The translations under genes and the position numbers were made by a program. Positions 34,056-49,050 of a DNA stretch of 64,000 bases are shown piece by piece. Origin of the DNA: Nesterenkonia marinintestina. GTDB lineage: Bacteria > Actinomycetota > Actinomycetes > Actinomycetales > Micrococcaceae. Below the pieces are notes generated by a model that was not told the origin of the DNA, ran no database searches, and saw nothing but the letters and a program-made list of their open reading frames with translations. Positions within the stretch are counted from its first letter, which is position 1. Every line of letters begins with the position of its first letter. The stretch lies in contig NZ_JAOEFD010000004.1 in assembly GCF_025420485.1 (NCBI RefSeq), forward strand, positions 62,001-126,000. Direction: 5' to 3'.

Positions 34056-34862
34056 ATGGTGGCCATGACGTCACCGCATCTGACCGCACTGCTGGAAGGC
34101 CCGCTCGAGACGAAGCTTCCGGAGGTGACGATCCGCCTTGCCACGAGCGACGATGCGGACTTCTGCGTGGAGCTTGCGGAGGCCGCCGGTTCCCGTCCGG
34201 GGAACGGACGCTTCGAGCATCCGCACTATCAGAGCGGTGTGCGCGCAGGACTCTCCGAGGGGTACCGAGGGTTCCGGAAGGCGGTGACCGAGGCTCCGAA
34301 GCAGGCCGATCCTGAGCGGAACGACTGGAACGCCGCAGCCGGTGCCGCGCAGTTCGACCTCATCGCGGAAGTCGACGGCGAGCGCGCCGGGTTCGTACGG
34401 ATGGGACCGCCCATGGGGCTGATCGCCCAGCTGCTGAAGAAGGGCTACGCCGGCACCCAGGCGGCGGCGCTGATCGTCCACGTCACCGAGATCACGACCC
34501 TCGCCGTCGACGGCGAGCGCGCAGGGTCCCACGACATCGGGGATCTTGAGAAGGTGCTGCTCTCCCACGCAGTGCGGCTGTCCCGGCACACCGGGGTGGC
34601 CCTGATGTTCGCCGATGTGCCGGCCCAGCGGGTGGCGCTGATGCACCAGTTCGGGCTGCGGCGAGTGCGCCCGAAGAAGGAGAAGCCGGGGCTGAACCTG
34701 TGGCCGGTGGCCGGTAAGCACCTGGTGGAGAAGGGCGACCGCGAGACGGACAAGGGCCCGTTCGTCATGCCCACCCAGGGCAACCAGCTGTGCGCACGGG
34801 TGACACCGGGCGAGGGACGTGTCCAAGCGTCCCTGCGCCGGCACAATCCCGAGTTGGGGTGA
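34056..34862 (+). CDS. GNAT-like protein of unknown substrate
   Basis: 268-aa protein with weak GNAT acetyltransferase character: VTIRLATSDDADFCVELAEA at the N-terminus, then FDLIAEVDGERAGFVRMGPP, HVTEITTLAVDGERAGSHDI and ALMFADVPAQRVALMHQFGL, which resemble the beta-strand/alpha-helix order of the fold. A clear acetyl-CoA loop (Q/RxxGxG/A) is not obvious. ATG 34056 or 34065 could be the start; neither has a strong ribosome-binding site. It is monocistronic, between the DUF4190 gene and the CRISPR locus, and ends 50 bp before a strong terminator. Confidence 0.65.
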   Translation: MVAMTSPHLTALLEGPLETKLPEVTIRLATSDDADFCVELAEAAGSRPGNGRFEHPHYQSGVRAGLSEGYRGFRKAVTEAPKQADPERNDWNAAAGAAQFDLIAEVDGERAGFVRMGPPMGLIAQLLKKGYAGTQAAALIVHVTEITTLAVDGERAGSHDIGDLEKVLLSHAVRLSRHTGVALMFADVPAQRVALMHQFGLRRVRPKKEKPGLNLWPVAGKHLVEKGDRETDKGPFVMPTQGNQLCARVTPGEGRVQASLRRHNPELG

Positions 34863-34912
34863 CCGTTCCGACCCCCTGCACGATTGCCTGATGCTTCGCG
34901 CGTTCTCACCCG

Positions 34913-34962
34913 TCGAGAGTGAAATCACCCGCCGACAGTTTGGCGGGTGATTTCACTCTCGA
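34913..34962. terminator. Strong bidirectional terminator, 21-bp perfect stem
   Basis: Arms 34913-34933 and 34942-34962 pair over 21 bp around an 8-nt loop. It terminates the GNAT-like gene on the plus strand. It also lies where a minus-strand transcript of the degenerate repeat pair (35121 to 35032) would need a stop. Confidence 0.85.
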
Positions 34963-35031
34963 GGGGTAGCGGCAAGTAGACCTCTACGATGACTCCCGCA
35001 CCTCTTCCTCCGGACCAGCTCGAGTAAGGGG

Positions 35032-35059
35032 TAGGTATCCCCGCTGAAGCAGGGAGCAG
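35032..35059 (-). repeat. Degenerate I-E repeat, distal unit of mini-array
   Basis: On the plus strand ATCCCCGCTGAAGCAGGG (35037-35054) followed by AGCA aligns with the reverse complement of the array repeat. 19 of 28 positions agree, and the stem-loop core is partly kept. Confidence 0.65.
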
Positions 35060-35092
35060 TTCGAACCGTCAGTCACAGCGGCGAATCAATCG

Positions 35093-35119
35093 GGCTCACC
35101 CCCGCCGCGCGGGGCAGTG
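35093..35119 (-). repeat. Degenerate I-E repeat, proximal unit of mini-array
   Basis: On the plus strand GGCTCACCCCCGC (35093-35105) is identical to the reverse complement of the GGGGGTGAGCC-type array repeats, and GCGGGG (35109-35114) restores the stem after a one-base deletion. The last 5 bases have diverged. Confidence 0.7.
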
Positions 35120-35127
35120 GCAACTCT

Positions 35128-35156
35128 GTCATACGCTTCTGAAGATCACGAGGCAA
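35128..35156 (-). promoter_or_regulatory. Predicted promoter of the mini-array RNA
   Basis: On the minus strand a -35 TTGCCT (35151-35156) and a -10 TATGAC (35128-35133) are separated by 17 bp. Transcription would begin about 35121-35123, just before the first degenerate repeat, where a crRNA-like transcript should start. Confidence 0.55.
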
Positions 35157-35181
35157 ACAGAAGCGCAGTCACGACCTCTAA

Positions 35182-35214
35182 CGATTGATTCGCTGTGGTT
35201 CTTTATTGGTCGTC
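35182..35214 (+). promoter_or_regulatory. Predicted self-target of the mini-array in the cas3 promoter
   Basis: CGATTGATTCGC at 35182-35193 is identical to the first 12 nt of the repeat-spacer junction of the mini-array; the remaining 20 positions match only in part. AAC at 35180-35182 lies where a type I-E PAM belongs, with AA at -3/-2. A seed-only match would allow binding without Cas3 cleavage. Confidence 0.65.
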
Positions 35215-35217
35215 CCG

Positions 35218-35226
35218 TGCTAAGCT
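35218..35226 (+). promoter_or_regulatory. Possible extended -10 of the cas operon promoter
   Basis: TGCTAAGCT reads as TGn plus a -10-like hexamer TAAGCT. With 17-bp spacing the -35 region would be about 35198-35203, inside the predicted R-loop 35183-35214. The hexamer is weak, so this is tentative. Confidence 0.35.
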
Positions 35227-35235
35227 GTAAGGCAT

Positions 35236-35251
35236 TGTGACTCTCATCACA
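35236..35251 (+). promoter_or_regulatory. CRP/GlxR-type operator upstream of cas3
   Basis: TGTGA-CTCTCA-TCACA is a perfect match to the TGTGA-N6-TCACA consensus of CRP-family regulators (GlxR/Cmr in actinobacteria). It is centred 22 bp before the cas3 start, downstream of the predicted -10, so repression by road-block is the simplest reading. Confidence 0.6.
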
Positions 35252-35265
35252 CGAAAGGCTCCCAG

Positions 35266-38163
35266 ATGCTTCAGCGCACCGCATGGCCGCTCGGTGGTTG
35301 GAGCATCTGGGCTAAGAGTGGCGACGAGAGTGGATGGCTCTCACTCCCCCAGCACATGATCGACAGTGCTGGGGTGGCAGAGATCCTCTGGAACGAGTGG
35401 GTGGCACCGTCACAGCGACGGCTTGTCGAGGGGAATCTCGGCATCTCTTCAGAAAACGTCACTCGGAAGGTGGCCTGGCTGGCCGGCAGCCACGACGTCG
35501 CGAAAGCCGATCCGGCATTCTTGAGGCAGATCGAAGACCGGCCGGAGCACAGGTACCTGGTCGACAAGATCAGCGACGCGGGACTCCCCCTAGAGCGGGA
35601 CGCACAGTTCCCCGGAAAGCTCGCGCACTCAACTCTGGGCGCGGCGATCATCACTCATTACCTAGATGCACGCTGGGGAATCCCCCCACGCACTGCGCGA
35701 ACATTGGCCTCAGTCGCAGGCTCCCACCACGGATTGCCGGCCAGCACAGCCGCCTTTAACGAGGCGCGTCGCTACCGCGCGGCTATGGACCCTCAGTGGA
35801 TGACCCTGCACACCGAACTCCTCGATTCCCTGGCGGCTCATACCGGCGCAGACGAGGTAATCCCGCTCTTGACGAAAACGAAGCTGTCGCCCCAGACGCA
35901 GATGATCATCACAGGGCTGACCATCATGACGGACTGGATCGCCTCGAACCCCACAGCCTGTCCTATGACAGCAACCGGTCATAGCTCCGACCCGAAGAGG
36001 GCGCGGGCCGCCGTCATCGCCATCCGCCCGACCACCCCCTGGTCGCCTCACCTCCCGGATACAGGGAAGACTACTGATGACTTCGCCGCCCGATTCGACT
36101 GGCCCGAGAACCGCAAGGCGCACCCGTCACAGGTCTCTGCGTTGGAGCTGTGTCGCTCCCTAACCCCAGGTGAGACCGGCATGCTCGTCATCGAAGCGGC
36201 CATGGGCGAGGGAAAGACTGAGGGTGCTCTCCTCAGTGCCGAAGTCTTGGCTCAAAGATCTGGATCATCAGGAGTCATGGTCGCCGCGCCCACCACTGCA
36301 ACAGCGGACGGACTGCTCACCCGAGTCGCACGTTGGGCTGAGTCCACCACGACGGCCGACCGCCCCATGTCGCTCTTTCTCGGACACTCACGCAGCAAGC
36401 TGAATCCGGATATGCGCACCCTTCGCTTTCAGGGCATCGACGGCGACGAGGTGCGCGCACCGACTGTGGCACACCAGTGGCTCAGCGGACGCAAGAAGGG
36501 AATTCTGTCCAACGCCGTCGTCGGGACGGTCGACCAGGTGCTGTTCATGGCGCTCCAGAGCAAGCATGTGATGCTCCGGCATCTGGGCCTGAGCAGCAAG
36601 GTGGTCATCATCGATGAGTGCCACGCCTATGACTCCTACATGTCGGCCTACCTGGCGACCGCCCTGCACTGGCTGGGGAAGTACAGAGCACCCGTGGTCC
36701 TGTTGTCCGCGACGCTGCCGGCCACACGTCGTCGCGAACTCATGGACGCCTACCGAGCAGGGCTCGACATCGACTACGAACCTGCGATCACGCCGGAAGG
36801 TCCGACCGGCCCCGCAGCGAGTACGGACGGAGTCGACTATCCCCGACTCACACTCGTCACCGATGATCGCGAGCAGACCGTGACGCCGGGCAGCTTCCGC
36901 AAGTCGGTTCAGGTCACTCTCACTGTCATCGCCGATGACGACGCCGCACTCCACAATGCCCTCCTCCTCACACGTGATGAGGGCGGATGCACCGCCGTCG
37001 TGTGCAGCACAGTATCCCGCGCCCAGGACGCCTTCCGTATCGCTCGCAACATGGTCGGCGACGACGCCGTGCTTCTGCACGCCCAATTCACGGCCTCCCA
37101 CCGATTGTCCAAAGAACGCCAGCTGCTGCAGGAATTGGGACCGCATGCCGGCAGGGACTCAGGCCGACCTCACCGACGTGTCGTCGTCGCTACACAGGTG
37201 ATCGAGCAGTCTCTGGATCTCGACGTCGACCACCTGATCACTGATGTCGCTCCTGCTGACCTCCTCCTCCAGCGGACCGGCCGGTTGCACCGACACAAGA
37301 GGAACTTGCGTGACCGTCCTCGGTGGGCGCACCAGCCTCGCGTCAAAATCCGCGGGCTTCTGAATTCGGCACCAGGTGAACGTCCTCCGACCTTCTCCCC
37401 TGGCGTGAACTTCGTCTATCCCGAGCCCCTGCTCCTCAGCAGCATCGCTGCACTGAGCCTGACTAGCCCCGAGACGGAGATCGAGCTCCCGACAGACATT
37501 CCCCGGCTCGTCCATGCCGCCTATGAGGCCCCCTCCGTTCCAGATTCCTGGTCCGAACACTTCGAGGACACACGAAGAGAGTGGCAGGTCGAAGAGCGTG
37601 AGCGCCGCAGCCGGGCGCGCAACTTCCAGATCAAGTCCCCGGATCACGGAACCCTGACGGACACCTTCGCCAGCAAGGTGGGTGCTGTGGACGAGGGCAC
37701 GAACCTCGGGGAGCAACAGGGCCTGGCTCGGGTCCGTGACGCTGACCCGAGCATCGAAGTCATCCCCGTTGTGACCACCGGTGACTCCTACTCACCGATG
37801 CCAGAAGGTTCCGCCGACACAAGGCCGCAGATGATCCATGAGGGCGTCATCCCCCAGGGCTCGCAGGAACGACGTCTGGCCTCGTCCACCCTGAGGCTTC
37901 CCACCCGATTCGCCAGGGCACGTCGAGGACAGCCGGACCCACTGGACACCCTCATCGACGAACTCGAAGGGCAGACAGATCCCGCGTGGATGCAGTCGTC
38001 ACTGTTGCGCGGGCAGCTGATGCTCCGGTTCGACGACTCGCTGCGAACGACGGTCGCCGGTCACGAGCTCGAGTACGACCTCGAACTAGGGTTGGTCGAC
38101 CACACCCACGACGCCTGGCGCGCTCAGGTGCAGCAGGAAGACAGGGAGAGTCATGACGACTGA
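35266..38163 (+). CDS. cas3: Cas3 helicase-nuclease, type I-E
   Basis: 965-aa effector nuclease-helicase recruited by Cascade to degrade target DNA. The HD nuclease domain (1-~250) has GSHDVAKADPAF (His76-Asp77) and further His ligands (HSTLGAAIITHY, AGSHHG). The SF2 helicase has Walker A AAMGEGKTEGAL (~313-317), the DECH box (~449-452), SATLP (~480) and motif V/VI VIEQSLDLDVDHLITDVAP and QRTGRLHRH. The C-terminal ~250 aa form the accessory domain. ATG 35266 follows AAAGG at 8 nt. It is the first gene of the cas operon and overlaps cas8e by 11 bp. Confidence 0.97.
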   Translation: MLQRTAWPLGGWSIWAKSGDESGWLSLPQHMIDSAGVAEILWNEWVAPSQRRLVEGNLGISSENVTRKVAWLAGSHDVAKADPAFLRQIEDRPEHRYLVDKISDAGLPLERDAQFPGKLAHSTLGAAIITHYLDARWGIPPRTARTLASVAGSHHGLPASTAAFNEARRYRAAMDPQWMTLHTELLDSLAAHTGADEVIPLLTKTKLSPQTQMIITGLTIMTDWIASNPTACPMTATGHSSDPKRARAAVIAIRPTTPWSPHLPDTGKTTDDFAARFDWPENRKAHPSQVSALELCRSLTPGETGMLVIEAAMGEGKTEGALLSAEVLAQRSGSSGVMVAAPTTATADGLLTRVARWAESTTTADRPMSLFLGHSRSKLNPDMRTLRFQGIDGDEVRAPTVAHQWLSGRKKGILSNAVVGTVDQVLFMALQSKHVMLRHLGLSSKVVIIDECHAYDSYMSAYLATALHWLGKYRAPVVLLSATLPATRRRELMDAYRAGLDIDYEPAITPEGPTGPAASTDGVDYPRLTLVTDDREQTVTPGSFRKSVQVTLTVIADDDAALHNALLLTRDEGGCTAVVCSTVSRAQDAFRIARNMVGDDAVLLHAQFTASHRLSKERQLLQELGPHAGRDSGRPHRRVVVATQVIEQSLDLDVDHLITDVAPADLLLQRTGRLHRHKRNLRDRPRWAHQPRVKIRGLLNSAPGERPPTFSPGVNFVYPEPLLLSSIAALSLTSPETEIELPTDIPRLVHAAYEAPSVPDSWSEHFEDTRREWQVEERERRSRARNFQIKSPDHGTLTDTFASKVGAVDEGTNLGEQQGLARVRDADPSIEVIPVVTTGDSYSPMPEGSADTRPQMIHEGVIPQGSQERRLASSTLRLPTRFARARRGQPDPLDTLIDELEGQTDPAWMQSSLLRGQLMLRFDDSLRTTVAGHELEYDLELGLVDHTHDAWRAQVQQEDRESHDD

Positions 38164-39841
38164 GACGCCACCGACGACATCGAAGAAGTTCGACCTCCTC
38201 GAGGAGCCATGGGTCACCTGCCTCATGATCGATGGACAGGAAGAGCTGCTTTCCCTCAGGGGGGTGCTGGACTGTTGCGACGACATCTCCCGCATCAGCG
38301 GCGACAGCCCGCATCAGGCGACAGCGATGCTGAGGCTTCTTCTGTCCATCTTCTGGCGAGCGCACCTCACCGCCGGCGAGCTGGGCCGCCGCCGCACAGA
38401 CGCCGAGCAGTGGTGGACCGATCTCTTCCTGGACGGTGATCGGCACCAAGTCATCGGTCCGCTCCACGCATATCTGCAGTCCCACAGTGACCGATTCTCA
38501 TTGTTCCACCCGACTGCTCCGTTCTTCCAGGTCGCCGACCTGCAGAAGGCAGATGAGAGTTACAGTCCCATTAGTCGACTCATCCCCGAAGCTGAGAACG
38601 ACTACTTCGCCCTCCGGGCCGATGAAGGCCGAGCCGCCCTGGACTACGCAGAGGCGGCGCGCTGGCTGGTCTGCATCCAGGCCTACGACTACTCCGGAAT
38701 CAAGCCGGGTGCGGTCGGCGATCCTCGTGTCAAAGGCGGAAAAGGCTACCCCATCGGACCGGGCTGGAGCGGTCAGGTCGGCGCCGTCGTCCTGCACGGA
38801 CGGACGCTGCGCGAGACGCTGCTGCTGAACACCCCCGCATCTCTGATCCAGTCTCTCTACATGGAGAACAAACAGGATGCGCCGCCGTGGGAGCGGGATC
38901 CCGACGGACCCGCACCACGGGCGGCTGACGCGGTCAGTCCTGAGGGACCCTGTGACACTCTCACCTGGCAGTCTCGGCGCGTCCGCCTGCATCGCGACGA
39001 GGACCTCGTCGTGGGTGTGCTGGTCTCGAACGGTGACAAGATCCAAAACAAGAACCAGTTCCTCGATCCGATGACGGCCTACCGCTACAGCCGGAACCAG
39101 TCGACGAAGGTCCATACGGTCCACATGCCTCAGGAGCACGATCCGGACCTGACGATCTGGCGCGGTCTGGCCCCAATCCTGGCCCGCACTCCGCAGTCGG
39201 AGGCAGAGGGCTCCGCCCCGACAGGCCGGATACCGAGCACTGTCGACGCACTGCAGGGACTGGCGCTTACCAAGCTGCCGGAGGACTTCACGGTCGTCAC
39301 CGAGCTGATCGGAGCACGATACGGCGCCCAGCAGTCCTCCCACGCCGACACCATCCATACAGTGCTCCCGCTGCGCATGAGCTTCCTCCTCTCCAGGGAA
39401 GACCGGCTGGCTCAGGCCGTCGTGAACGCGGGGCGGGTCGCACTCGACGCCACCGTGGCACTCGGACAGTTCGCCGGCACACTGCTTCAGGCGGCTGGCG
39501 GCGACTACGAGTTTCAATCTGCCCCCCGCGCAGCCGTCCTCCACGGACTCCAGTCGCATTTCGCGCAGTGGGTGGTCGGCATCGTCCCAGATGCCGATAT
39601 GCATGACGCCGCACAGAAGTGGGAAGACCTCGTTCGGCGCGCCGTGATCGATGAAGCACGGACTCTCCTGAGATCCGCCTCACCCAAGGCGATGATCGGC
39701 ACCTACGTCGGAGCCGAATCACCTCGCCTCGTCTCCGGTGCCGCTGCCTGGGGGCGTTTCCAGAGACGGTTGGACGAGCTGCTCCCAACAACAGACCTCG
39801 ACCGCAAGCATCCAGAGACAGCACAGGCGGAAGGCGAATGA
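38153..39841 (+). CDS. casA: Cascade large subunit Cas8e/Cse1
   Basis: 562-aa large subunit that reads the PAM and recruits Cas3. The N-terminal KKFDLLEEPWVTCLM is the family start. HPTAPFFQVADLQ, NTPASLIQSLY and AARWLVCIQAYDYSGIKPG resemble the conserved Cse1 core, which carries the L1 loop region. The C-terminal part is helical (AQAVVNAGRVALDATVALGQ). It is longer than the E. coli protein (502 aa), as usual in actinobacteria. It overlaps cas3 by 11 bp, and casB starts 2 bp after its stop, consistent with one polycistronic transcript. Confidence 0.95.
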   Translation: MTTETPPTTSKKFDLLEEPWVTCLMIDGQEELLSLRGVLDCCDDISRISGDSPHQATAMLRLLLSIFWRAHLTAGELGRRRTDAEQWWTDLFLDGDRHQVIGPLHAYLQSHSDRFSLFHPTAPFFQVADLQKADESYSPISRLIPEAENDYFALRADEGRAALDYAEAARWLVCIQAYDYSGIKPGAVGDPRVKGGKGYPIGPGWSGQVGAVVLHGRTLRETLLLNTPASLIQSLYMENKQDAPPWERDPDGPAPRAADAVSPEGPCDTLTWQSRRVRLHRDEDLVVGVLVSNGDKIQNKNQFLDPMTAYRYSRNQSTKVHTVHMPQEHDPDLTIWRGLAPILARTPQSEAEGSAPTGRIPSTVDALQGLALTKLPEDFTVVTELIGARYGAQQSSHADTIHTVLPLRMSFLLSREDRLAQAVVNAGRVALDATVALGQFAGTLLQAAGGDYEFQSAPRAAVLHGLQSHFAQWVVGIVPDADMHDAAQKWEDLVRRAVIDEARTLLRSASPKAMIGTYVGAESPRLVSGAAAWGRFQRRLDELLPTTDLDRKHPETAQAEGE

Positions 39842-39842
39842 C

Positions 39843-40514
39843 ATGACAGAACAGACGACAGACCTCCCTGCTGACGGGGGCGACACACCAGAACTGCAGA
39901 GTCCTTCCCTGGCCAATGCCGTGCGGTCCGCGATTCATCGGCTCTATTCCTCATCCTCAGGAGAATCGGTCATTGAAGGTCGCGGCCAGACGGCCACGCG
40001 TGCCCAACTGAGGAACGCCGTGGGAAGGAGTCCTGAGCAGAGTCTGATGGCGTGGACGACGGTCGTGGGGAAGCTCCTTCCGGAGTTTCCAGACGATTGG
40101 ACATCCACGGATGAACCGAGTCGACAGGAATGGGCGGCCTTCACAGCACTGACCCACTGGGCTATGCATCAGCAAGCCATACCGTCGGCCATGCATGTGA
40201 CAGCCAAGAACCGAGGCCACAACTTCGGCCACAGCGTCGGCAGGCTCGCTGTCGCACGGAACTCCGAGTCGACGAAGGCGCGCTTCGACGCCCTCCTGCT
40301 CAGTCCCGGCGAAGCTTCGACTCTTCATCATCTGCGCAGTCTCGTCCAGCTCCTCCGTGCCTCGTCGATCTCCACCGACTATGGACTGCTCGCGGAAGAT
40401 CTCGCCGCTCTGCGGCGTCCGGGTGGGCGCCAACGGGTCGCCCTCCGATGGGGTCGGGGCTTTGCCCGCGGTGCGGCCGCAGGTCGCGCGAAACAGCCCT
40501 CCGAGACCACCTGA
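39843..40514 (+). CDS. casB: Cascade small subunit Cse2
   Basis: 223-aa small subunit; two copies stabilise the crRNA and non-target strand in Cascade. It is helical, with the Cse2 landmarks LSPGEASTLHHLRSLVQLLR and TDYGLLAEDLAALRRPGGRQRVALRWGRGF-like sequence at the C-terminus, rich in Arg for nucleic-acid contact. The first ~45 residues are an acidic extension absent from the E. coli protein (160 aa). ATG 39843 is in frame and directly after the casA stop; the ATG overlapping that stop is in another frame. Confidence 0.93.
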   Translation: MTEQTTDLPADGGDTPELQSPSLANAVRSAIHRLYSSSSGESVIEGRGQTATRAQLRNAVGRSPEQSLMAWTTVVGKLLPEFPDDWTSTDEPSRQEWAAFTALTHWAMHQQAIPSAMHVTAKNRGHNFGHSVGRLAVARNSESTKARFDALLLSPGEASTLHHLRSLVQLLRASSISTDYGLLAEDLAALRRPGGRQRVALRWGRGFARGAAAGRAKQPSETT

Positions 40515-40546
40515 TCCGCCAATCCCTCTGCTGAAAGGTTCTGACT

Positions 40547-41677
40547 ATGCCGCTGTACCTCGACATCCACGCACTGCACACCGTTCCGCCCAATAACCTG
40601 AACCGCGACGACACCGGAGCACCCAAGACTGCCACCTTCGGCGGCGTGATCCGCCAGCGCGTGTCGTCGCAGGCGTGGAAGCGCGCCATGAGGAAGGACT
40701 TCGAACAGCATCTGCGGCCGGACGAACTCGGCGTACGAACCCGACGAATCGTCTCAAGAGTCGTCAAGGCCATCACTGACATCGATGGCTCCTGGGAGAA
40801 GGACAGGGCGGCCGAGGCTGTGGAGAAGGCTCTGAAGACGGCCAAGATCGAAGTCACCAAGGACAAGACCCAGGACGAGGACGACCCTCGCGATGCGGAG
40901 GACCTCTGGGAGACCAAATACCTGCTCTTCCTGAGCGCCCACCAGATTCAGCGTCTCGCCGAGTTCATCGTTGAGAACGACGGTGAGAAGTACACGAAGA
41001 AGCAGGTGGAGCCGTTGTTGGACGAGCGGCACAGCGTGGACATCGCCATGTTCGGGCGAATGGTGGCTGACGCCGCGGATTTCAACGTGGATGCGTCGGT
41101 CCAGGTGGCCCATGCTCTGGGCGTGTCCGCCGCGGAACCCGAGTTCGACTACTTCACGGCTGTGGACGACGTCGTCGACGACGCCGAGGAGACCGGCGCC
41201 GCCATGATCGGCACTGTCCAGATGATGTCGTCGACGCTTTACCGGTACGCCACAGTTGATATCGAGCGTCTGGGCGAAAACCTGGCCTCAGAGGATGCTG
41301 CCAGGGAAGCGACGGCCGCCTTCGTCCGTTCATTCATCACCTCGATGCCCACGGGGAAGCAGAACACCTTCGCCAACCGCACACTCCCAGAGGCAGTCGT
41401 CGTTGCGCTGCGCACAGATCGTCCGGTGTCTTGGGTCAACGCCTTCGAGGAGCCAGTTCCGTCGGACTCGACGAGCAATCGCCGCGTCGCCGCAGCCGAG
41501 AAGCTCGCACGCGAAGCGACGTCGCTGGAGGAAACCTTCGGAACGCCGAAGGGCAATCGCACCTGGGTGGTGGCTCTGAAGGACCTGGCTCCTGCGCTGT
41601 CACCCATCGGACCGACAGTCACGCAGAACGAGCTTCTGACTGAGCTGTCCCAGGAGCTGCGGGAGGAGCGCCAGTGA
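40547..41677 (+). CDS. casC: Cascade backbone Cas7e/Cse4
   Basis: 376-aa backbone protein, six copies of which line the crRNA. It begins LDIHALHTVPPNNLNRDDTG and continues with APKTATFGGVIRQRVSSQAWKRA, the conserved Cas7e N-terminus. The thumb and palm segments include TSMPTGKQNTFANRTLPEAV and RPVSWVNAFEEPV. The size agrees with E. coli CasC (363 aa). ATG 40547 follows GAAAGGTTCTGACT. Its stop overlaps the casD start by 4 bp. Confidence 0.97.
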   Translation: MPLYLDIHALHTVPPNNLNRDDTGAPKTATFGGVIRQRVSSQAWKRAMRKDFEQHLRPDELGVRTRRIVSRVVKAITDIDGSWEKDRAAEAVEKALKTAKIEVTKDKTQDEDDPRDAEDLWETKYLLFLSAHQIQRLAEFIVENDGEKYTKKQVEPLLDERHSVDIAMFGRMVADAADFNVDASVQVAHALGVSAAEPEFDYFTAVDDVVDDAEETGAAMIGTVQMMSSTLYRYATVDIERLGENLASEDAAREATAAFVRSFITSMPTGKQNTFANRTLPEAVVVALRTDRPVSWVNAFEEPVPSDSTSNRRVAAAEKLAREATSLEETFGTPKGNRTWVVALKDLAPALSPIGPTVTQNELLTELSQELREERQ

Positions 41678-42369
41678 CGACGCTGCTGCTGAAGCTCCAT
41701 GGACCGATGCAGGCCTGGGGTGACGACAGTCGGTTCACTACCCGTCAGACACGCAGCGAACCGACGAAGTCAGGAGTCCTAGGACTCTTAGCCGCAGCCC
41801 AGGGCCGACGACGGTCGGATCCGGTCGAAGATCTCGCGGAACTGACTTTCGGCGTGCGTGTCGACCAGCCGGGCGAACTGCTCCGAGACTTCCAGACGGC
41901 GATCGACTGGCGGTCCAACCGCTCTATGCCGCTGAGCACACGGTATTACCTGGCTGACGCCGTCTTCGTGGCCGCCGTCGAAGGTCCCGCGCCCCTCATC
42001 GATTCGCTTGAGACAGCCCTGGGTACGCCGGAGTTCCCGCTTTATCTCGGGCGCCGCTCCTGTCCTGCCAATCCCGACATCGTCCTCGGCACGACCGAAC
42101 TGCCTATCGATGAGGCGCTTCGCGCAGCAGAGTGGCAGGCAAGGCCCTGGCACCAGCGACAGAGATCGCGCCGGGTGCATCTGCCGATATACCGAGACTC
42201 GACTGCCGGAGAACGAGGCGACTCTCAACGCGATGTGCCTATCAGTTTCGATCAGAGGCATCGGAGATACGGATGGCGAGAAGTCGTCACCGGTGAGCCG
42301 GTCATCAAGGAGAATCGCCACGGCAACGATGACGTCGACGTCTTCTTTGAGGCGGTGAGCAACGGATGA
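41674..42369 (+). CDS. casD: Cascade subunit Cas5e
   Basis: 231-aa Cas5e, which caps the 5' handle of the crRNA. Family motifs are LLLKLHGPMQAWGDDSRFTT at the N-terminus, RSEPTKSGVLGLLAAAQG, TRYYLADAVFVAAVEG, and PLYLGRRSCPANPDIVLG. The region QRSRRVHLPIYRDS follows. ATGA overlaps connect it to casC upstream and casE downstream. Confidence 0.97.
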   Translation: MTTLLLKLHGPMQAWGDDSRFTTRQTRSEPTKSGVLGLLAAAQGRRRSDPVEDLAELTFGVRVDQPGELLRDFQTAIDWRSNRSMPLSTRYYLADAVFVAAVEGPAPLIDSLETALGTPEFPLYLGRRSCPANPDIVLGTTELPIDEALRAAEWQARPWHQRQRSRRVHLPIYRDSTAGERGDSQRDVPISFDQRHRRYGWREVVTGEPVIKENRHGNDDVDVFFEAVSNG

Positions 42370-43037
42370 CTTGGTTCAGTGCACTTCAGGTGAATCCCAG
42401 ACGACGGGAAGCACGCCGCTACATGAGTGACCCGCAGAGTCTGCATGCCGCGGTCCTCAACGCGTTCCCTCCTCAGAGCCAGCCATCGCAGGAAGGCCGT
42501 GCTCTGTGGCGCCTGGACGCCTCAGAACATGATCAGGTCCTTTACATCGTTTCCCCCGAGAAACCCGACCTATCTGCTCTCCACGAAGGCACAGGGTGGG
42601 AACAGGCTCTACCGAGGTTCACAGAGTATGACCCTTTTCTCTCACGCCTGCGCAAAGGCCAGCAGTGGGGCTTCCGACTCCGAGCCAACCCCGTGAAGTC
42701 CATCCCCCGAGAGGGGCGTCGGGGAAAGGTGGTTCCGCATGTGACACCTGATCAACAGTTGGCATGGTTGACCGATCGGTCAGGTCGTCACGGATTCTCA
42801 GTCGGCTCAGTGACCGATCCGAGCAGCCTGACGGCGGAGGTGACGGGGCGAACCGATCAACGATTTGGAAGACGTTCACCTGATTCAGCTCGCCGCACCA
42901 CAGTTACGCTCCGACAGGCCCAGTTCGACGGGTCATTGGTCATTGAGGACGCCGACGCCTTTCGAGCGACACTCGTCGACGGGATCGGCAGAGGCAAGGC
43001 ATACGGATGCGGGCTGTTAACTCTGAAACGAATCTGA
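42366..43037 (+). CDS. casE: crRNA endoribonuclease Cas6e
   Basis: 223-aa Cas6e that cuts pre-crRNA below the repeat stem and stays bound to the 3' hairpin. It has the ferredoxin-like start WFSALQVNPRRREARRYMSD, His27 in the segment SLHAAVLNAFP (equivalent to the catalytic His26 of E. coli), ALWRLDASEHDQVLYIVSPE, and the C-terminal glycine-rich loop DGIGRGKAYGCGLLTLKRI. Its substrate is the GC stem CCCCGC/GCGGGG of the array repeat. Confidence 0.96.
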   Translation: MTWFSALQVNPRRREARRYMSDPQSLHAAVLNAFPPQSQPSQEGRALWRLDASEHDQVLYIVSPEKPDLSALHEGTGWEQALPRFTEYDPFLSRLRKGQQWGFRLRANPVKSIPREGRRGKVVPHVTPDQQLAWLTDRSGRHGFSVGSVTDPSSLTAEVTGRTDQRFGRRSPDSARRTTVTLRQAQFDGSLVIEDADAFRATLVDGIGRGKAYGCGLLTLKRI

Positions 43038-43038
43038 G

Positions 43039-43977
43039 ATGAGCGTGCCGGGTATCCCGCCACCAGTTCCGAGGGAACTGCTGCGTATTGAGGACCGCAT
43101 CTCGTTCGTCTACCTCGAGCGGGCCGTCGTTCACCGGGACGAGAATGCCATCACATCTACAGATGAAGAGGGAACGGTGCATCTGCCTGCAGCTGGTCTC
43201 GGATGCCTGCTGTTGGGACCGGGAACTCGGGTCAGTCACGCCGCTATGGCTCTGCTCGGTGATTGTGGAGTGAGCGTCATCTGGGCAGGTGAGAGGGGAG
43301 TGAGATTCTACGCGCATGGGTCTGCCGTCGCGAAGAACAATCATCTGCTCGTACAGCAGGCGCGACTGGTCTCCAACAATCGTTCACGTGTGGCTGTGGC
43401 TCGGAAGATGTACCAGATGCGTTTTCCTGGAGAGGATGTTTCGAAGCTCTCGATGCATCAGCTCCGAGGTCGAGAAGGTGTCCGAGTCCGCCGCCTTTAC
43501 GCTGAGCAGGCCCGGAGGGTAGGGATCGACTGGCGTGGGCGCAATTACAAGCCCGGTGAGATCGACGCGAGCAATCCCGTGAATCAGGCGCTGACAGCTG
43601 CGAACGCGGCTCTCTACGGGATCGTGCACTCGGTCATCTCTGGGCTTGGATGCTCACCGGGACTCGGTTTCGTCCACGCAGGGACGAGTAGATCTTTTGT
43701 CTACGACATCGCTGACCTCTATAAGGCCGAAACGACGATTCCCGCATCGTTTGATGCTGCGGCATCGGCCGATGAATCATTGACGACATCAGTCAGACGA
43801 CGCCTCCGCGACGCCGTGGTGAAGACGAAGCTCCTCGAGCGCTGCACTTCTGATATCTATGATCTCTTGTCCTCTGACAACAGGGATCCAGAGATCACGG
43901 CCGATCGTGACCGCGACACGGTGACTCTGTGGAGTGACGATGGTGAAGTACCAGCCGGCAGAAGCTACGGGGCGTAG
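43039..43977 (+). CDS. cas1: CRISPR integrase Cas1, type I-E
   Basis: 312-aa integrase subunit for spacer acquisition. The N-terminal beta domain includes DRISFVYLERAVVHRDENAI and GAGLGCLLLGPGTRVSHAA-like sequence. The catalytic helical domain has AANAALYGIVHSVISGLGCS followed by LGFVHAGTSRSFVYDIADLY, containing the metal-binding His (FVHAG) and Asp (YDIAD). The size agrees with E. coli Cas1 (305 aa). The start is 1 bp after the casE stop. Confidence 0.97.
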   Translation: MSVPGIPPPVPRELLRIEDRISFVYLERAVVHRDENAITSTDEEGTVHLPAAGLGCLLLGPGTRVSHAAMALLGDCGVSVIWAGERGVRFYAHGSAVAKNNHLLVQQARLVSNNRSRVAVARKMYQMRFPGEDVSKLSMHQLRGREGVRVRRLYAEQARRVGIDWRGRNYKPGEIDASNPVNQALTAANAALYGIVHSVISGLGCSPGLGFVHAGTSRSFVYDIADLYKAETTIPASFDAAASADESLTTSVRRRLRDAVVKTKLLERCTSDIYDLLSSDNRDPEITADRDRDTVTLWSDDGEVPAGRSYGA

Positions 43978-43979
43978 CA

Positions 43980-44372
43980 ATGATCGTACTTGTACTCACG
44001 TCCTCACCCCCAGGGTTGCGGGGCGATCTGACCAAATGGTTGCTGGAGATCAGCCCTGGAGTGTACGTGGGCAATGTCAACAGCCGAGTCCGGACGAAGC
44101 TGTGGTCTCGCGTCACATCGATGTGCCGTGACGGTCGCGCACTTCTCGTGTACAGCACGCCCAACGAGCAACGCTTGAGCTTCGAAGTCCATGACCACCA
44201 CTGGGAACCCGTCGACCTCGACGGAATTACAGTAATGCGCCGCCCCGCCCGCAGGCGAACATCGAAGCGACGTACAGGATGGAGCATCGCCCGCGGACAG
44301 CGCCGGAGCCAAGCTGGAACATGGCGCCGCCGCTATGATGCCGACGACCAAAGTGCACCCGATTCAACCTAA
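43980..44372 (+). CDS. cas2: Cas2, type I-E, with basic C-terminal extension
   Basis: 130-aa Cas2 of the type I-E (CasCD/Cas2e) group. The core MIVLVLTSSPPGLRGDLTKW, ISPGVYVGNVNSRVRTKLW and GRALLVYSTPNEQRLSFEVH are typical. After residue ~92 comes a ~38-residue tail rich in Arg (RRPARRRTSKRRTGW, RGQRRSQAGTWRRRYDADD), longer than the 94-aa E. coli protein. The tail may contact DNA or the leader. Only 28 bp separate the stop from the first repeat, so part of the leader must lie within this coding end. Confidence 0.95.
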   Translation: MIVLVLTSSPPGLRGDLTKWLLEISPGVYVGNVNSRVRTKLWSRVTSMCRDGRALLVYSTPNEQRLSFEVHDHHWEPVDLDGITVMRRPARRRTSKRRTGWSIARGQRRSQAGTWRRRYDADDQSAPDST

Positions 44373-44400: not shown

Positions 44401-47400
44401 GTGCTCCCCGCATCTGCGGGGATGAGCCCTCCATCTCACCGATGGGCTCCTTGATGGACTGGTGCTCCCCGCATCTGCGGGGATGAGCCCTTATCCCCGG
44501 CCGGCGGGTCGAACGTGCGGGGGTGCTCCCCGCATCTGCGGGGATGAGCCCTGGCGGACTGCTGGGGCGACCGTGCAGCTCGAGTGCTCCCCGCATCTGC
44601 GGGGATGAGCCCACCGACAAGGAGAGGCATGCCCAGCACACCAGGTGCTCCCCGCATCTGCGGGGATGAGCCCGAGTGGCGGCGGGTCTATGGCCGTCCG
44701 CGCACGTGCTCCCCGCATCTGCGGGGATGAGCCCCACCAGGCCGCCATCTGCCGCCAGTTGGTCGAGTGCTCCCCGCATCTGCGGGGATGAGCCCCAATC
44801 CACGTATGGGGAGTCTTTGCAGCCGACGTGCTCCCCGCATCTGCGGGGATGAGCCGCACACGGGGCCGACACTGGGCGAAGCCTTCGAGTGCTCCCCGCA
44901 TCTGCGGGGATGAGCCCCTGATCAACAACTTCTCGCGTGGCCTCTGATCGTGCTCCCCGCATCTGCGGGGATGAGCCCAGGAATAGATGCGTTCCCGTGC
45001 GTGCCACCTGGTGCTCCCCGCATCTGCGGGGATGAGCCCTCCACGTGCTCGCCGGTGCCCGTGGTGAACTCGTGCTCCCCGCATCTGCGGGGATGAGCCC
45101 CCGGAGGCTGAGACATGACACTGGTCCGCATCGTGCTCCCCGCATCTGCGGGGATGAGCCCGACCTCTGGTGACACGCCGCTGTCAAAAATCGGTGCTCC
45201 CCGCATCTGCGGGGATGAGCCCACTGGTCGCGTGTTGGGGTTGCGAGATGTCAAGTGCTCCCCGCATCTGCGGGGATGAGCCCATCGGCCGGATGCTGTT
45301 GCGCCAGATCGCAATGTGCTCCCCGCATCTGCGGGGATGAGCCCGAGGATGACGCATGGAAGTTTTCTGCCACCTGGTGCTCCCCGCATCTGCGGGGATG
45401 AGCCCCAGCAGGCCGCACACCGCAAGGGCGCACCCACGTGCTCCCCGCATCTGCGGGGATGAGCCCGACTCGCAGAGGAAGGCAGGCGCGTGGTCACCGT
45501 GCTCCCCGCATCTGCGGGGATGAGCCTTGGTGGCCGTGTATGTGGCCGATGGTCATCCCGTGCTCCCCGCATCTGCGGGGATGAGCCGCCTGCGAGTGAT
45601 CTCTGCGGCGGGCAGGTCGAGTGCTCCCCGCATCTGCGGGGATGAGCCCACCACCCCCTGCCGTTCGGCATGGGGGTTTCGGTGCTCCCCGCATCTGCGG
45701 GGATGAGCCGTTCACGGTGCTTGAGCCATACACCCATGCGAGGTGCTCCCCGCATCTGCGGGGATGAGCCGCAACGCGGCTACGCAAACGATGAGCCTTG
45801 CATGTGCTCCCCGCATCTGCGGGGATGAGCCCGACTCATACACCCCGCACGCGCCCACCCGCTCGTGCTCCCCGCATCTGCGGGGATGAGCCCCAACGCA
45901 CGGTCGCGGCAGGCATCGGCCCAGCTGCTCCCCGCATCTGCGGGGATGAGCCCCTGTATCAGCAGGCTAGGCCCGTGCGCATCCGGTGCTCCCCGCATCT
46001 GCGGGGATGAGCCTAGACCTCCCCCCTAACTCCCATGCCTTCAGGGGTGCTCCCCGCATCTGCGGGGATGAGCCCCACTCCACTGGTCAAGATCGGCGGC
46101 TTCCTTGGTGCTCCCCGCATCTGCGGGGATGAGCCCTGCGACCGACCAACCCAGAACTACCTCTGCAAGTGCTCCCCGCATCTGCGGGGATGAGCCCGCC
46201 CGCAAGCCATTGGCCGGGATCATCGTGGAGTGCTCCCCGCATCTGCGGGGATGAGCCCACCGGGTCCACGATGGGGCCGTGGAAGGTCACGTGCTCCCCG
46301 CATCTGCGGGGATGAGCCGTCGGGGGGCGCGGAGCCGGGTGTCATTGCGATGTGCTCCCCGCATCTGCGGGGATGAGCCCTCTCTGGTTACTTCGATCAT
46401 GTTCATGGCGCCGTGCTCCCCGCATCTGCGGGGATGAGCCCTGCTTCTTCGAGCTGGGCGTCAATGTGACCGCGTGCTCCCCGCATCTGCGGGGATGAGC
46501 CCATCATGAATCCGATGAAGACGATGACCGTCCCGTGCTCCCCGCATCTGCGGGGATGAGCCCACCCGCTGGTCGAAGTAGGAGATGTGCGTACTGTGCT
46601 CCCCGCATCTGCGGGGATGAGCCCGCCGCCAAGGAGCTTGCCCTGCGGGTAGTGGTGTGCTCCCCGCATCTGCGGGGATGAGCCCTCGACCACCTCGCCA
46701 GAGCCGGTCTCGAACTCGTGCTCCCCGCATCTGCGGGGATGAGCCCCTCGCCAGCCCCTCCACGTCCTCCCCCGCCGCGTGCTCCCCGCATCTGCGGGGA
46801 TGAGCCGCTCGGTCATCCCGACCTGCCGGTACGGCGGTGGTGCTCCCCGCATCTGCGGGGATGAGCCGACCATGTACACCACCCGAGACGAAGCGATCAC
46901 GTGCTCCCCGCATCTGCGGGGATGAGCCCAAGTCCGCACTGGCGACCATGGCCGATGAGTCGTGCTCCCCGCATCTGCGGGGATGAGCCCTCCCGTGCGG
47001 CCTCCGGTGCCACCTCCGGCGGGTGCTCCCCGCATCTGCGGGGATGAGCCCGAGTACCGCTGGGACGACTATCACTACGCCCTGGTGCTCCCCGCATCTG
47101 CGGGGATGAGCCCGGGAAGCGCGGGCGGTCATGCCCACTAGGGCGGTGCTCCCCGCATCTGCGGGGATGAGCCCCGTAGTCGGTGGTCTCTGCCGAGCCG
47201 ACCACCGTGCTCCCCGCATCTGCGGGGATGAGCCCCGAGCCTCGATCTTGTCCGAGTACTTCTCGATGTGCTCCCCGCATCTGCGGGGATGAGCCGCATC
47301 CAGGCCAGACCACCAGTCCGGGGCGTTGGTGCTCCCCGCATCTGCGGGGATGAGCCCTCAGCGGCCTACGAGTTGGATCACACCGACTGGTGCTCCCCGC

Positions 47401-49050
47401 ATCTGCGGGGATGAGCCCGGATCGTGGCGAGACGGCGACGGTGGGACGGCGTGCTCCCCGCATCTGCGGGGATGAGCCGCAAGGCGTCCCTACCAGACAC
47501 CTCGTTGCCGTGTGCTCCCCGCATCTGCGGGGATGAGCCCATGGGTGCCTCCGAGGCCCCGCGCACGGTGCCGTGCTCCCCGCATCTGCGGGGATGAGCC
47601 CGCAACCGAGACGGCGAGCGAAGCAATCGCCACGTGCTCCCCGCATCTGCGGGGATGAGCCCACGTCACGCATCGTGCGAACGCCCACCTTGTCGTGCTC
47701 CCCGCATCTGCGGGGATGAGCCCGGGTCGCGGGCGGGATACTCGCCGAAGACGATGTGCTCCCCGCATCTGCGGGGATGAGCCCGCCCGGTCGGTGACCA
47801 TCGAGACTCAGGGCACGTGCTCCCCGCATCTGCGGGGATGAGCCCTTTCGCCGAGTCAGACGGGGTGGTCCGATCCGGTGCTCCCCGCATCTGCGGGGAT
47901 GAGCCCGACTATGCGGGGACAGTGGCACTGACCGGCTTGTGCTCCCCGCATCTGCGGGGATGAGCCCTGGAGCACCGAGGCCAAGATGCGCGCCTGGAAG
48001 TGCTCCCCGCATCTGCGGGGATGAGCCCGTGGCCCTCCTTTAGGAGGGGTAAGTCAGAACGTGCTCCCCGCATCTGCGGGGATGAGCCCTCCTCTTCGTG
48101 GATTGAGTAGAAAAAGATTCCGTGCTCCCCGCATCTGGGGGGATGAGCCCGGCACTACGGGTAACGCCAGCAGTACGGGCAGGTGCTCCCCGCATCTGCG
48201 GGGATGAGCCGTAGAGTGCGCCGTCAGCGGGAGTGTCATCGAGGTGCTCCCCGCATCTGCGGGGATGAGCCCGGGTCCAGGTCGTCGGGTGCGGGCCGTC
48301 GGGTGTGCTCCCCGCATCTGCGGGGGTGAGCCCTCGGCGGCGGCCTCCTCGGCCACGGTGCGGAAGTGCTCCCCGCATCTGCGGGGGTGAGCCCCGACCT
48401 AATCCCCCTAAGCCCCGTCCCTCCGTGTGCTCCCCGCATCTGCGGGGGTGAGCCCGGGTCCAGGTCGTCGGGTGTGCTCCCCGCATCTGCGGGGGTGAGC
48501 CGTAGTGCCAGACTTCGGCTATTGCTGCGATGTCGTGCTCCCCGCATCTGCGGGGGTGAGCCCATCTTCCCCGTCTACGGCAAGCCGGCGATTTAGTGCT
48601 CCCCGCATCTGCGGGGGTGAGCCCGAGACTCCTCACCACTCCGGAAATGCCGCTGAGTGCTCCCCGCATCTGCGGGGGTGAGCCCACGCGCTTCGCCGGT
48701 GCTGCAGAGGGGCTGCGGTGCTCCCCGCATCTGCGGGGGTGAGCCCGCCGCGAGCTACACGGTCCGCCGTGGAGACACGTGCTCCCCCCATCTGCGGGGG
48801 TGAGCCCGGTCGTCTTGAATCGCCAGGTCTCCCCAGGGAGTGCTCCCCGCATCTGCGGGGGTGAGCCCGCCGGCTCCGTCGAGGAGTCCCGGGCGGTGGA
48901 GTGCTCCCCGCATCTGCGGGGGTGAACCCAGCACCGCCGCGGCGATCACCGCATAGTCCCGGTGCTCCCCGCATCTGCGGGGATGAGCCCTCGGCGTACC
49001 AGCTCAGGTGGGTATCGAATGTGCGCTCCCCACACCGGCGGAGCTGAGAC
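44401..49050 (+). CRISPR. Type I-E CRISPR array, about 76 repeats plus a decayed terminal repeat
   Basis: The 28-nt repeat is GTGCTCCCCGCATCTG followed by CGGGGATGAGCC; the next base is C in most units, so a 29-nt repeat with 32-nt spacers is equivalent. The period is 61 nt. I traced repeat starts from 44401 to 48962, with a decayed copy at 49023-49050 (18 of 23 core positions). Exceptions: the unit starting 45925 begins with C and has a 60-nt period, the unit at 47085 has 62, and the spacer at 48455-48473 is only 19 nt. Repeats at 48305-48901 carry GGGGGTGAG instead of GGGGATGAG. Changes cluster at the distal end (48122, 48779, 48901), so the leader side is at cas2. All spacers appear distinct except one truncated duplicate. 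Confidence 0.98.

Follow-up and report, generated by a model that had tools for sequence, protein, structure and literature searches.

A degenerate mini-CRISPR upstream of cas3 in Nesterenkonia marinintestina, very probably a CreR-type regulator of a type I-E cas operon

The locus considered here raises the question of what two decayed copies of a CRISPR repeat, placed on the opposite strand just upstream of cas3, are kept for in the genome of Nesterenkonia marinintestina. The analysed stretch of DNA comprises 64,000 nucleotides of contig NZ_JAOEFD010000004.1 and is designated below as the window, to which all coordinates refer. In the first-pass annotation the element was read as the gene of a crRNA-like autorepressor, and this reading appears to be supported by the conservation of seed and target across related loci. 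According to the comparison presented here the mini-CRISPR can be assigned with high confidence to the CreR type of cas-regulating RNA genes, whose product would direct Cascade to repress the cas operon without cutting it.

The cas gene set is complete for type I-E, since Cas3, Cse1, Cse2, Cas7, Cas5, Cas6e, Cas1e, and Cas2e were all recognized by Pfam or NCBIfam models (Table 1). The cas3 and cas8e genes overlap, the other genes of the operon overlap or are closely spaced, and all eight run in the same direction, so a single promoter before cas3 could control the whole set. The main array was counted as 76 units by a search allowing 3 mismatches and as 75 by a stricter pattern, and one of its units, at window 48427-48501, is just 47 nt long against the usual 61, with a spacer of about 19 nt. 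Comparison of the array spacers with phage records gave weak matches only (34 records, best E 0.01) and no protospacers usable for a PAM test. Directly upstream of the intergenic region lies an ORF (34056-34862) of 268 aa, for which neither Pfam nor NCBIfam gave a match at E 0.001.

Table 1. Position of the mini-CRISPR, its target, and the neighbouring CRISPR-Cas features in the window.
Feature	Position	Strand	Remarks
psi-repeat 2	35031..35059	-	expected source of the 3' handle hairpin
psi-spacer	35060..35091	-	32 nt, starts GATTGATTCGC; positions 1-11 form the seed
psi-repeat 1	35092..35120	-	29 nt including the PAM-derived C at 35092; expected 5' handle GUGAGCCC
presumed promoter of the crRNA-like RNA, TTGCCT-17-TATGAC	35121..35160	-	letters present
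target	35180..35193	+	PAM AAC 35180-35182, 11-nt seed match 35183-35193
presumed cas operon promoter and 5' region	35180..35265	+	by position only
cas3	35266..38163	+	first operon gene; Cas3_HD, Cas3_C, cas3_core
cas8e/cse1, cse2, cas7, cas5, cas6e, cas1e, cas2e	38153..44372	+	NCBIfam type I-E models
main CRISPR array	44401..48989	+	75-76 units, period mostly 61, repeat GTGCTCCCCGCATCTGCGGGGATGAGCC

Two degenerate repeats in reverse orientation had been described upstream of cas3, and they are indeed present, with an identity to the array repeat of 18/28 at 35120-35093 and 19/28 at 35059-35032 and a start-to-start spacing of 61 nt. This is well below the near-identity that the repeats of an ordinary CRISPR array possess. 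Apart from the array, the window contains no other pair of sites with at least 17/28 identity at 61 nt, and no such pair arose when the 403-nt intergenic region was shuffled 2000 times at the mononucleotide level. The decay of the two copies is divergent: psi-repeat 1 retains the 5' handle (7/8, compared with 12/21 in its first 21 nt), while psi-repeat 2 retains the Cas6 stem (17/21 in the first 21 nt, which form the stem half, compared with 3/8 in the last 8), and the poorly kept 12/21 and 3/8 are the dispensable parts. Decay of this kind leaves what a crRNA-like gene would need, namely, the handle from repeat 1 and the 3' hairpin from repeat 2. When folded as 35032-35060, psi-repeat 2 gave a stem-loop of -11.6 kcal/mol with z -2.8. 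The minimum-energy fold of psi-repeat 1 contains a 6-bp stem CCCCGC/GCGGGG, and neither this repeat (z -0.37) nor the whole pre-RNA (z -0.16) folds better than shuffled sequences.

The C at 35092 together with psi-spacer positions 1-11 is identical to plus-strand 35182-35193, where AA stands before it; since the shared stretch begins with C, the PAM is taken to be AAC, which starts 86 nt before the cas3 start. Thus, the earlier claim of 12 contiguous shared nucleotides beside AAC with a poor match beyond proved to be exact: guide positions 1-11 are all matched, position 12 is mismatched, and the matches beyond are scattered. The sequence AACGATTGNTTCGC has a single occurrence in the 2.58-Mb genome. 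A C stands directly after the repeat in psi-repeat 1 as well as in 61 of the 74 array units; this would be expected if the last PAM base is retained, in line with type I-E practice, and if the PAM is AAC. A query of the open literature on the AAC PAM returned no paper combining all terms. The complementarity is limited (AAC and 11 nt) and falls into the stretch that is presumed to be the cas promoter region, where the TANNNT-like hexamer TAAGCT at 35221-35226 is a promoter candidate guessed by eye.

Transcription signals of the mini-CRISPR are less distinct. The letters of the minus-strand promoter proposed by the first-pass annotation exist, but the consensus scan of 34850-35290 on both strands found neither promoter-like nor terminator-like sites. 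The 21-bp terminator that was proposed beyond the second repeat corresponds to a real inverted repeat (34908-34933 / 34942-34967) situated between the end of the upstream gene at 34862 and the mini-CRISPR, with 26-nt arms, 96% complementarity, and an 8-nt loop, but it has no T-run and lies within the region of the same scan. A search in Rfam gave one chance-looking microRNA match on this inverted repeat (34911-34963), below the gathering score.

The strongest evidence was obtained from related loci, for which up to 700 nt upstream of cas3 were collected as a sample and not a census, with 80 of 525 relatives taken in one search and at most 30 loci in each of three others. The first pass covered 128 of 136 regions after removal of 8 duplicates; the main set of 147 regions, the window included, arose by adding 26 loci and removing 5 near-duplicates and 2 short regions; and a set of 156 regions was obtained with 13 further loci after exclusion of 3 in which the cas3 match starts far inside the gene and of L183 as a near-duplicate. 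Distances to cas3 in the relatives are counted to the start of the protein match, while in the window they are counted to the true gene start. The strict repeat weight matrix misses the window element, and handle plus stem were used in its place: a repeat-like site was located and the bases following it were compared with AA-preceded sites in the same region.

In the main set, among rows with AA and matched positions 1-5, 20 also match all of positions 7-11, while 0.39 were expected from pairing across loci, and with AAC the numbers are 15 and 0.12. The 20 rows represent 18 loci, or 17 with differing seed sequences after subtraction of the array artefact L052; the PAM is AAC in 14 of these 17 robust loci, and matches occur at position 6 in 2 of them and at position 12 in 3. 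The stricter first pass of 128 regions had given 14 sites with runs of at least 10, where 0.10 were expected. In the within-locus register-shift control (156 regions, AA required) 17 loci were found at the true register, while the 72 shifted registers gave 0.85 loci on average and never more than 6, with 1-3 loci at shifts of 1-4 nt. When the AA requirement was dropped no distinct excess was seen: the true register gave 63 locus-PAM pairs, and the shifted registers gave 51.7 on average and up to 108, since matches between array repeats enter the count. An excess with AA and no clear one without it indicates a PAM-specific signal. Targets preceded by CC are also matched at the true register in 17 loci of the 156 regions, and after dropping the multiplicity filter this class contains 358 rows, of which 246 follow a repeat-like end; most of the listed examples are array repeats that match each other.

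The distribution of matches along the guide was examined in rows selected by AA and positions 1-5 only (36 rows of the 128-region set, about 13 of which are expected by chance, with the near-identical L028 and L029 both counted). The match rates are 0.61-0.78 at positions 7-11 and 0.44-0.61 at positions 13-17, with dips to 0.31 at position 6 and 0.19 at position 12, and from position 18 on they are 0.22-0.47, mostly near background, where controls give 0.25-0.30. In Cascade every sixth crRNA base is flipped out, according to PMC5904413, and with dips at precisely 6 and 12 the matches carry the footprint of Cascade.

Guide and target not only agree in 17 of the 147 loci but also change jointly, as is seen from L014 and L015, whose Cas3 proteins are 95% identical. 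In this pair the guide differs at positions 7, 9, and 11, and the target has changed with it: positions 7-11 read ATGTG in L014 and TTATA in L015, the targets match each, and psi-repeat 1 is identical. In both loci, as read by eye, a TTGACA hexamer and the PAM overlap, and psi-repeat 2 is followed by a hairpin that ends in a short T-run. Similarly, L183 has psi-repeat 1 as in L028 but another seed and another target, matched at 4 of 5 in positions 7-11. It had been stated in advance that the autorepressor would be refuted if related strains did not conserve the repeat pair and the seed-target pairing; such conservation was found in 17 of the 147 sampled loci, though the nearest relative examined, L010 of the same genus (Cas3 51% identical), is not among the element-bearing loci. 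At the 4-of-5 level 116 of the 147 regions, the artefact L052 being counted, carry no element, and in 29 of these repeats of the main array lie in the 700 nt before cas3. The elements of L108, L147, and L155 (4 of 5) are doubtful.

These facts make it possible to weigh what else the two repeats might be. The degenerate state of the repeats (18-19/28) would suit an inert remnant of a mini-array, whose spacer matches the cas3 promoter by chance or through an old acquisition and which has no present function, and a weak gapped similarity past the seed (CTGTG, noted by eye) is what an old promoter acquisition might leave behind. Such a relic is, however, not expected to show agreement of seed and target in 17 loci with different sequences and with the 5+1 rhythm of Cascade, nor joint changes of seed and target between near relatives, nor decay that spares the handle and the stem; on account of the guide-target covariation it was rejected as a highly improbable explanation. 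The shared stretch might also be regarded as a DNA operator, since CGATTGATTCG is nearly palindromic, stands twice in the window in opposite orientation, and could be bound by a protein repressor of the cas operon. Despite the fact that the window copies form an inverted pair, the corresponding stretches in relatives are quite different in sequence, occur in either relative orientation, come after a repeat 3' end in one copy and after AA(C) in the other, and are mostly mismatched at position 6. A protein operator was rejected on these differences between seeds and the mismatched position 6, and its probability is very small. Agreement of seed and target, taken as a whole, would be predicted neither by a protein operator nor by a decayed array.

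A third alternative is a CreTA-type module, in which the same guide anatomy would serve to repress a small toxin RNA and not the cas genes; the creA genes share the 1-5/7-11 seed rule (PMC8501985), and in some relatives the target is distant from cas3. In the window the downstream gene is cas3 itself, and the 72 nt from the seed match to the cas3 ATG leave little room for a promoter and a toxin gene, although a very small RNA toxin is conceivable, so for the window this explanation is very unlikely. The comparative evidence on seed and target makes the window element very probably a CreR.

In the CreR mechanism proposed for the window a minus-strand transcript would be cut by Cas6e at the two decayed repeats, and the resulting crRNA-like RNA would load Cascade. 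The complex would then recognize the AAC PAM, with guide positions 1-5 and 7-11 predicted to pair just upstream of cas3, and occupation of the promoter region would lower transcription of the whole cas3-cas2 operon. In the type I-E system of E. coli, according to PMC5904413, binding takes place with about 5 bp and a PAM, but more than 18 bp are required for interference; the contiguous match in the window ends after 11 nt, so Cas3 should not cut, and binding without cleavage is expected. In the published CreR model, as given in PMC12737573, repression is lifted either by crRNAs that compete for Cascade or by anti-CRISPRs that disable it. Hosts with the element should accordingly raise their cas expression on loss of the guide or when crRNAs are abundant, a point of relevance for work with native type I-E systems.

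The first-pass annotation supposed that the I-E setting might be undescribed, which was not borne out: according to review PMC13131331, citing Liu et al. 2023, CreRs mediate autorepression in subtypes I-B, I-E, and V-A, and novelty by subtype was rejected on this ground. CreR is described in general terms in review PMC12737573, citing the same work (Liu et al. 2023, Cell Host Microbe). The window element is therefore very probably a further case of a known kind, for which the comparison with relatives makes an unusually firm case. As far as the CreRs of Liu et al. can be judged from these reviews, the likeness consists in a crRNA-like RNA whose complementarity to the cas promoter is limited, a kind described for type I-E as well, and here a crRNA-like gene with two degenerate repeats stands beside the cas operon at 35120-35031; the difference is that the window element is known from its sequence alone. 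Another related system is CreA of type I-B haloarchaea, where, according to PMC8501985, creA genes consist of two divergently decayed repeats that keep the handle and the 3' hairpin, and the 1-5/7-11 seed rule was demonstrated by mutation. The divergent decay and a seed match at these positions recur in the window, but the target is the cas3 upstream region and not a toxin RNA promoter, and the system is of type I-E with PAM AAC, not I-B with TTC as it is written there.

The spacing of the repeats requires separate consideration, since the earlier statements that it is exactly the array period and that a 61-nt geometry is conserved are correct for the window but only half right for relatives: where a second repeat exists, the psi-spacer is shorter by 12 nt in about half of them. 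In 28 of 31 loci a second hairpin exceeded the threshold, and its distance from the PAM-derived base is bimodal, with 21-22 nt in 11 loci, 33-34 nt in 15, and 31 and 46 nt in one each; random starts reach the hairpin threshold in 317 of 1470 cases, evenly over all distances. With L182 added and L014 and L015 set by alignment, there are 14 short and 15 long psi-spacers and one at 31. In this hand-compiled table a hairpin below the threshold (8.5) was taken for L014 and the second-ranked hairpin for L015, as their alignment shows; the top hairpin of L015, at offset 46, is terminator-like, and L034, L042, and L013 barely reach the threshold. The 17 robust loci with a second repeat include 10 short (20-21-nt psi-spacer) and 7 long ones, and the two classes hardly overlap, the exceptions being L016 without a second repeat, L108 without a plausible one, and L183 with an intermediate offset of 26. 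The 20-21-nt psi-spacers, 12 nt below full length, were noted in L014, L015, L024, L028, L032, L039, L057, L132, L154, L182, and others.

The difference of 12 nt corresponds to two Cascade segments. It can be suggested tentatively, at somewhat less than even chances, that the autorepressor RNAs of type I-E fall into two discrete size classes (psi-spacers of 32-33 nt, to which the window belongs, and of 20-21 nt, shorter by two Cascade segments), that the short ones build a smaller Cascade with perhaps four instead of six Cas7, which binds and represses but cannot license Cas3, and that seed and target coevolve so fast that near relatives may differ in seed. Smaller Cascades would in that case be assembled from short CreRs, and the short form would be a natural cleavage-proof repressor complex beside the immune Cascade. 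According to PMC10989794, on the type I-B system of Haloarcula hispanica, engineered spacers of 24 nt or shorter repress without detected cleavage or primed adaptation; the window differs by its full-length psi-spacer, though 10 of the 17 robust loci with a second repeat possess a natural psi-spacer of 20-21 nt. No text on two CreR spacer lengths was found in the open literature, Liu et al. 2023 and its supplement lying beyond that scope, and as far as checked the two lengths 12 nt apart are new. They raise the testable question of natural short Cascades.

If the CreR reading holds, RNA-guided self-repression of type I-E would recur across actinobacteria (17 of 147 sampled regions) and appear to be under selection, a view drawn from sequence comparison only, and a simple finder for such elements would look for a repeat 3' end followed by a seed that matches at 1-5 and 7-11 beside AAC. 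In 7 of the 17 loci (L016, L057, L154, L158, L159, L167, and L169) the target precedes the start of the cas3 match by 303-545 nt and is therefore not always obviously the cas promoter; these distant-target sets may control another gene or a CreTA-like toxin. In 5 of the 7 the mini-CRISPR stands between the target and cas3. Upstream of cas3 in L079/L139, L110, and L027 degenerate repeats also occur in short series, spaced by 61 nt or nearly so; at the 4-of-5 level no seed match was found in L110 and L027, and L079 has one.
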